This document shows positions 1-1,480 of a stretch of 64,000 nt of DNA, in pieces; within the stretch, counting starts at the first letter, position 1, and the number at the start of each line of letters is the position of its first letter. Both the position numbers and the translations under genes were made by a program. The notes beneath the pieces were generated by a model that was given only the letters and a program-made list of their open reading frames with translations, did no database searches and had not been told where the DNA came from. The DNA is from Schoenoplectus triqueter (taxonomy: Eukaryota; Streptophyta; Magnoliopsida; Poales; Cyperaceae): the NCBI GenBank assembly GCA_964058805.1, contig CAXKVV010002174.1, positions 1 to 64,000 on the forward strand. Reading direction: 5' to 3'.

Positions 1-1020
1 ATGAGGATTTTTACACACATGATATAACATTTAGAACGATTAGTCAAGACAAGAACATCTTGACGAAGAATAACTGAGGCTTAGACAGCAATATGAGAAG
101 ATATGTCGAGACAAGAACATCTTGACGCTTGATGAAGAATAACCAAAGCTACGACATCAACATGGAGAGATATGTCGACTCTGAGGAAGAAGAACATTAC
201 GATGTCCGAGAGAAGTGACATCTTAATGACTCATCACCATGAGCAAGTAACTCATGACTAAATACGCTCACACAAGGGGTGTAGGGCAACATAGTAATTT
301 TGCACAAGTAATGCAACATATAGAATGATTAGTCGGGACAAGAACATCTTGACGCTCGCTGAAGAATGACTAAAGCTACGACATCAACATGGAGAGATAT
401 GTCAACTTTGAAGAAGAAGAACATTACGATGTCCAAGAGAAGTGACATCTTAATGACTCGGTGTCATGAACAAGTAATTCATGACCATTTGAGCTAGTAA
501 GACTGAACTCATCCGTCGATGAGTTTGTCTTCTGGTTCATCTCCCGAGATTGTGAGATTGAATCGTTCTGTAGTAGATTCATCCACAAAACAGTGAATGT
601 GAACCGTTCTGTAGGTAGGTTCCTTCACTAACACATGCCTCAATGTTAAGCTGGCTCAGTGCTTCAGGTTTAACATTGTGTGTAACTGTGTTTCCTAGGT
701 TTATGAATCGGCTTAGTGCTTCGAATTCATGATCTAGAAGATCGGTGAGAAGAAACACGTGGGCCATATCCACCCTTCTCCAGATTCACCAACCTCAAGA
801 TCAACCGGCTCAGTGCTTCGAGTTGTATTTTGTGTGATTGGTTGTTGACTAGTTAAGATTGAACCGTTCTGTAGTAGGTTTATCTTCTAGATCAACAGAG
901 GTTGAGTCCTTCTGTAGTAGACTCACCTCAAGCCCCTTCAAAGAGGTTAATCTGATCTGTAGTAAGGTTATCTCTTGAAGCGGTAAAGACTGAACCGATC
1001 TGTAGTAGGTTCGTCTTCCA
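1..1020. repeat. Array of short hairpins with constant loops and variable stems
   Basis: About seventeen short inverted repeats lie head to tail. Family I (556-583, 593-628, 855-886, 898-929, 941-976, 986-1017) has a loop close to GTTCTGTAGTA flanked by stems that differ between copies but stay complementary. Family II (641-678, 703-730, 796-832) has a loop close to CGGCTCAGTGCTTCGA. The left part has loops CAAGAACA (43-64, 106-127, 331-352), CGAGAGAAGT or CAAGAGAAGT (195-228, 422-455) and CAAGTAA (238-256, 463-485). 40-265 and 328-487 are two diverged copies of one segment. There is no convincing ORF. The origin is unknown and the array may continue left of the window. Confidence 0.75.
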
Positions 1021-1480
1021 TGGATCCCCTTTTGTGAACCCAGACGACCACTTGACCATCTTTTAACTATATTATTTGCTTCTCCCTTTCAAAGATCCAG
1101 AGGTGCCTCGAGGTTAGTAGCCCAGGGTAATTAACGGTGGGGGCTTGCGCCCACCGGAATCTACAAGAACTCACAATCACTGAAAAAAACCCCCTGAATG
1201 TGCATCCAAATCTCTCTAAACGGCAAAATCAGCCGGCACCTAGCAGATGCACGCTTGGGAGGGATCTCCGTGTCCTTCTTCCGCAACCCATCGCCCAGCG
1301 GCGGTGCGGAGCGCGCGAAAAAGGGTCGCACAAGTTTTTTTTAAGGATTACAAAATAAAGCACGCAGATCTAAATATCCATATAGAATCCATAATTGAGT
1401 TTTAAATCTGCAATTAGAAGTCACTTGGGCTTAGAATTATAGCGTTCTTCCCTAATACGTGGCCATGCTGCCGAATGCCG
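1021..1480. other. Unrecognised stretch, locally GC-rich
   Basis: This stretch follows the hairpin array. 1120-1340 is GC-richer than its surroundings, and the 73-codon plus-strand frame at 1137-1358 resembles nothing I recognise. It could be the edge of a decayed retroelement. I see no gene, terminal repeat or promoter I can defend. Confidence 0.3.

Follow-up and report, generated by a model that had tools for sequence, protein, structure and literature searches.

A hairpin array in the LTR of a gypsy-type retrotransposon

The window analysed here, a stretch of 64,000 nt of Schoenoplectus triqueter DNA, starts with the first base of contig C2086 and opens within the long terminal repeat (LTR) of a retrotransposon (Table 1), a setting that the earlier note on this DNA had overlooked. 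The lineage is a high-copy gypsy-type retrotransposon with an LTR of about 5–6 kb. A complete copy is located on contig C2065, where the two LTRs (about 5107 and 6325 bp) are 99.5–99.6 % identical over their aligned parts, and the copy is therefore young. Its termini read as TG..CA, the target duplication as AAAAT, and TGGCACGCCCGGTGGGACC there resembles a primer site. It contains a gag ORF with the gypsy-type domain PF03732 (Retrotrans_gag) and, adjoining the 3' LTR inside the copy, an antisense ORF of 648 aa with a plant mobile domain, PF10536 (L051:2284-4227). A scan of five ORFs found neither a pol nor a reverse transcriptase domain, and for this reason the copy is probably non-autonomous. 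Two ORFs at L050:1721-5864 resemble each other in a zinc-knuckle-like stretch (CPYHR..GH..C), as though the terminal part of gag had been duplicated.

Table 1. Positions in the window of the LTR segments and of the hairpins of families I, II and III
Feature	Position	Strand	Remarks
LTR, 3' part	1..1332	+	Ends ..GTCGCACA; 5' part lost at contig start; both LTRs of the C2065 copy align with it as far as 1332-1333
LTR end, putative core promoter/R/U5	1050..1332	+	Better conserved than the array; CTATA(C/T)TATT at 1067-1076
Family I hairpin S0 (seventh member)	499..531	+	Stems AAGAC/GTCTT and GAACT/AGTTT; T bulge; loop in the window itself self-complementary
Family I hairpin 1	552..586	+	Inner stem GAATC/GATTC, 560-580
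Family I hairpin 2	592..629	+	Inner stem GAACC/GGTTC, 601-622; larger internal loop replaces the single bulge; loop in the window 12 nt
Family II hairpin a	641..678	+	Loop ..GGCTCAGTGCTTC..; pairing kept no better on internal than on terminal branches
Family II hairpin b	702..731	+	
Hairpin III	744..790	+	Two-part stem
Family II hairpin c	796..832	+	
Family I hairpin 3	855..886	+	Inner stem GAACC/GGTTT, 861-881
Family I hairpin 4	898..929	+	Inner stem GAGTC/GACTC, 904-924
Family I hairpin 5	942..975	+	Inner stem AATCT/AGGTT, 949-969
Family I hairpin 6	986..1017	+	Inner stem GAACC/GGTTC, 992-1012

In the complete copy the hairpin array is located 302–850 nt from the 3' end of the LTR, and a conserved TATA-like segment follows closely. 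In 73 distinct aligned tails most columns of the LTR end are at least 90 % identical, a stretch at about 1205–1255 being more variable, and we infer that this segment acts as promoter. From its position just upstream of the TATA-like segment the array would belong to U3, and would thus be present in the RNA only near the 3' end. An antisense transcript from the LTR would also cross the array.

The earlier note had described six family I hairpins between 556 and 1017, and all six were borne out, together with the five inner stems that it listed; the inner stem of hairpin 5 was missing from its list, and the seventh, orthologous member at the left of the array had escaped it. A lone unpaired T between inner and outer stem, which had been claimed for at least four copies, accompanies a 5-bp inner stem in five of the six, hairpin 2 being the exception. 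Family I loops in this part of the window are 11–12 nt long and near G(A/T)TCTGTAGTA. Three family II hairpins, with a loop that is GGCTCAGTGCTTC or one mismatch from it, and hairpin III are situated between family I hairpins 2 and 3. The CAGTGC of the family II loops resembles that of iron-response elements, but a matching stem is absent and this reading was rejected. RNA folding of positions 481–1020 gave z-scores of -6.65 for the + strand and -5.03 for the - strand.

Upstream of the array, three more hairpins (43–64, 105–126 and 332–353) share a constant loop, CAAGAACA, and have the stems GTCAAGA, GTCGAGA and GTCGGGA, each facing TCTTGAC, so that their differences are G-T wobbles of the + strand only. 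The same part of the LTR contains two copies of a direct repeat of about 168 bp (91–258 and 318–485; 87 % identical and 227 bp apart), further partial copies of which are found in several other LTR copies.

A genome-wide search with GAACTGATCTGTTTGTAAGTTC, allowing up to three mismatches, gave 771 forward and 719 reverse matches, and the same pattern read backwards gave none on either strand. The matching places are spread over many contigs, which makes an assembly artefact unlikely. Rfam covariance models gave no match at E values up to 1 in window positions 1–1400, and the exact C-type hairpin had no match in viral and prokaryote collections, which possibly hold no records of the window's own genome.

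Compensatory change among orthologous hairpins

In an alignment of ten family I hairpins from LTR subfamilies A and B, 98 of the 100 cells are paired, a count that is favoured by the structure having been drawn from the same sequences, and eight of the ten pairs change on both sides. The covariation score of this alignment is 0.616 as against 0.323 ± 0.042 after shuffling, with none of 500 shuffles reaching the observed value, and when the partner column was slid only 30–50 % of cells were paired. Orthologous pairs also switch between Watson–Crick states, many of them showing G-U in some copies, across 72 distinct arrays (one of them C-type): pair 996–1008 is C-G in 36 and T-A in 34, pair 990–1013 T-A in 34 and C-G in 32, pair 898–929 G-C in 36, A-T in 29 and G-T in 5, and pair 951–967 T-A in 35, T-G in 20 and C-G in 17.

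These copies are related to one another and not independent, and frequency and tree tests were used to tell change before copying from decay after insertion. Variant pair types of family I present in at most two copies were paired in 29 cases and unpaired in 61, while those present in at least six copies were paired in 13 and unpaired in 3 (p=4.5e-4). With all hairpins included the test gave p=0.0054, rising to 0.069 after eight left-out pairs had been returned; families II and III alone gave no difference (p=0.29 and 0.36). Among common types, slid partners gave 13–19 paired and 23–34 unpaired, compared with 21 and 11 in the true register.

Changes were then placed on two trees of the copies, the first built from 87 rows with family I stems and loops left out and the second from all columns. 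Double compensations on internal branches numbered 12 in family I on the first tree and 8 on the second, and none was found on either tree when the partner was slid by one, two or three columns in either direction. The ratio of kept to broken pairing was 44:15 on internal and 133:134 on terminal branches of the first tree (p=5e-4), and 43:17 and 126:130 on the second (p=0.002). This contrast was absent in four of the slid controls. However, a slide of -3 gave a stronger contrast than the true register (38:5 internal and 68:48 terminal; on the second tree 31:6 and 66:46, p=0.006), perhaps by reason of stem composition, and a slide of -1 gave 30:10 and 69:51 (p=0.06). The kept-to-broken contrast is thus unspecific to the true register, and it is the double compensations and the frequency test that carry the case. 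Stems and loops also changed less on internal relative to terminal branches (0.26 and 0.22) than the rest of the array did (0.41; p=0.0013 and 0.00025, respectively), with corresponding values on the second tree of 0.25, 0.25 and 0.41 (p=0.0019 and 0.0054). Family I therefore shows compensatory change beyond chance and relatedness. The earlier claim of covarying stems as a selected structure stands to the extent that pairing in orthologous copies has been preserved about a loop and bulge that are nearly fixed; genomic copies whose flanks pair no better than chance, which had been named as counter-evidence, are not what was found.

Families II and III provide an internal comparison. They have one internal double compensation in 45 pairs, as against 12 (8 on the second tree) in 68 pairs of family I, and their kept-to-broken ratios are 19:21 on internal and 91:81 on terminal branches (25:20 and 89:78 on the second tree). 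On internal branches families II/III differ from family I in this respect (p=0.010, first tree), and with no internal excess of kept pairs a maintained structure is unsupported for them.

Evidence on the strand is weak and mixed. The sense RNA had the lower folding z-score in 4 of 16 arrays hand-picked out of 90, and a sense-strand RNA is not supported by such scores. G-U and A-C states occurred at 20:12 on internal and 96:57 on terminal branches, which do not differ, and fixed G-U (seven pairs) did not significantly exceed fixed A-C (three pairs). In the pattern matches listed, which are related copies rather than independent events, U-G exceeded C-A by 19 to 7, a borderline result (p=0.029, or 0.075 against the linker rate).

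Such changes could also arise by mutation, without selection on a structure: in reverse transcription or replication, one arm may serve as template for the other through template switching or quasi-palindrome correction. Such a process has been described for RNA genes, where it can maintain hairpins (PMC8794818); it would give no strand preference, as observed, and would suit what look like double changes on one branch, 12 of them internal and 7 terminal. That family II and III hairpins, in the same array and with stems at least as long (up to 12 bp), are hardly compensated and not kept paired nevertheless argues against a general palindrome-correcting copying process. Moreover, the asymmetric bulge survives, G-U pairs stay uncorrected in whole subfamilies, and some changes pass via wobble states (T-A, T-G and C-G at pair 951–967). 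A process of this kind would not preserve the loops, yet their changes on internal branches are few and concerted. The contrast with families II/III, the persisting bulge and the fixed wobble pairs all weaken this account, which the earlier note had itself put forward as a copying process that regenerates inverted repeats, and we consider it unlikely.

Loop types and subfamilies

A first look through 82 Mb gave 718 A, 699 B and 673 C candidate arrays, in overlapping sets from each of which 40 were scored. Identity to A is about 86 % for subfamily B (L052:2330-2960) and about 78 % for subfamily C (first met at L019:2835-3640). In the stretches fetched, arrays of related LTR subfamilies contain from 7 to about 20 hairpins; 20 stretches of types C and E had 342 candidate loops between them, from 5 to 23 per stretch, and in every one of these stretches more than half of the candidate loops had five paired inner positions. 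In a typical hairpin, outer and inner stem are each 5 bp long and separated by one bulged pyrimidine, and the loop has 11–12 nt. Among 316 candidates whose loop is 12 nt long, the bulge position is T in 260 and C in 39. At the 100 places listed of 314, with any combination allowed, the loop-closing pair is C-G in 55, T-A in 39, T-G in 3 and C-A in 3, which are counts of related copies and not of events.

The loop, taken as constant in the earlier note, is not strictly so: it is near-fixed and changes in concert between subfamilies. The consensus is G(A/U)UCUGUAGUA in A and B and GAUCUGUUUGUA in the divergent subfamily C; typical loops are GTTCTGTAGTA in A (hairpins 1–4), GATCTGTAGTA in B, GTTCTGTAGTT in D and GATCTGTTTGTA in C, with E mixed and F having ..TCAGTAGTA in hairpins 2–6 (by eye, in one copy). 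The F loop was found beside the stems of hairpin 3 or 6 at 11 exact places, and beside both at four loci. With orthologous hairpins named by their order around the family II block, the identical loop change falls on one tree branch in three to four hairpins while the inner stems GAATC, GAACC and GAGTC stay distinct; the direction of these changes depends on midpoint rooting. At L106 (G000:C170:5350-7450) E- and F-type arrays abut in opposite orientation, one having been inserted into the other or beside it. At G000:C44:2612-2872 and C7:27023-27312 an A-type hairpin 3 is followed within 300 nt by 12-nt C-type loops (GAACCGATCTGTTTGTAGGTTC), and at both places a single LTR thus seems to combine two types of loop.

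Homogenization of a tandem repeat, in which the likeness of units reflects recent duplication without any function, should also be considered. The array is indeed tandem-derived, with a unit of about 42–46 nt, and it expands: L042 and L047 each have 13 candidate rows, a few of them by chance, and some C-type units are near-identical at a spacing of 42 nt. However, homogenization would move stem and loop together, whereas here orthologous stems remain distinct while their loops change jointly, and compensation occurs at single pairs. As a full explanation we regard it as very improbable.

What the array may do

Repeated and palindromic elements have been described in other plant transposable elements, and two of these bear on a regulatory role at the DNA level. 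In Sireviruses, palindromic RM boxes precede the TATA box of the LTR and number 8–32 copies per element (PMC2829016). The resemblance lies in the many dyad-symmetric boxes within a plant retrotransposon LTR, but in Sireviruses, which are Ty1/copia elements whereas the element described here has a gypsy-type gag, the arms (CGG..CCG) are conserved around few intervening bases, while here the arms covary and a centre of 11–12 nt is conserved (PMC2829016). The CGG..CCG core is absent from the stems listed here, and the arms vary between boxes. The targets of VANC proteins in VANDAL elements are arrays of short non-coding motifs whose units diverge together and have been proposed to track their binder (PMC5735166, PMC10398659). 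They resemble the present array in being repeated motifs that change in concert in non-coding parts of a transposable element, and differ from it in being DNA motifs of a DNA transposon; the words 'hairpin' and 'palindrom' do not occur in the texts PMC5735166 and PMC10398659.

By analogy, the family I units could be dyad boxes upstream of a promoter that are bound by a DNA-binding factor, for example an anti-silencing or activating one, in which case pairing would be a by-product of dyad symmetry or would act through extruded or single-stranded DNA. The place of the array immediately upstream of the TATA-like segment, as for the Sirevirus boxes (PMC2829016), the absence of a strand preference and the joint change of units, as in VANC targets (PMC5735166), are all consistent with this. 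Yet the arms differ among the hairpins of one array and still pair, which a single half-site specificity fails to explain; the conserved part is an asymmetric centre of 11–12 nt, and stems of 5–10 bp with such loops would probably make poor cruciforms. We therefore think a DNA-level array rather improbable, albeit the likeliest alternative.

Retand elements offer a third comparison. These gypsy elements have antisense ORFs and family-specific tandem arrays between pol and the 3' LTR (PMC11963269). The element described here is likewise gypsy-type with an antisense ORF next to the 3' LTR, but its array is in the LTR rather than between pol and the 3' LTR (PMC11963269), and 'hairpin', 'stem-loop' and 'secondary structure' are absent from the text PMC11963269. 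The five ORFs scanned in the C2065 copy, which we would place in the Tat group, gave no match to TRP28, the domain reported for Retand. Titles, abstract beginnings and passages of the open-access literature yielded no description of a covarying LTR hairpin with a near-constant loop; repeated cis-elements in LTRs being already known, this hairpin appears to be the added feature.

Since it is pairing and not arm sequence that is kept, and since conservation centres on a large asymmetric loop, our best guess is that the array has a role in RNA. Multivalent RNA hairpin sites are familiar from phage coat-protein hairpins and from the packaging and export elements of retroviruses. As in those sites, loop and bulge are conserved here and stem sequence is free as long as it pairs; the difference is that the binder is putative in the present case and that the array would lie near the 3' end of the RNA. 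Our working hypothesis, which we favour tentatively and regard as quite possibly correct, is that family I forms a multivalent hairpin array, a putative cis-element that probably acts in the RNA of the element and is read through its loops. The stems would merely hold up the loops, and a loop-reading protein, either the Gag/nucleocapsid of the element or a host RNA-binding protein, would bind many loops at once on the genomic RNA. The most likely task would be to mark the RNA of the element for packaging or export, and concerted loop changes may reflect the array following a shift in the specificity of its binder. A pairing of the A loop with the conserved LTR end (CTACAAGAAC), noticed by eye, was dropped as post hoc, because the states vary by subfamily and B loops do not fit.

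To our knowledge, little is established about how plant LTR retrotransposons choose their own RNA, and it is interesting to speculate on a more specific form of the multivalent array. Up to about 20 RNA hairpins in the LTR might constitute a code, with loops that are recognized by a protein co-evolving with them and that switch together when its specificity changes, so sorting the RNA of one subfamily, including that of non-autonomous copies, from that of another; we hold this to be doubtful. These arrays, with their graded numbers of hairpins, their naturally occurring compensatory variants and their four or more natural types of loop, provide a test set for a search for the binder and for co-evolution of loop and binder. 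If the hypothesis is true, it would also show that an LTR can maintain its tandem repeats as structures.
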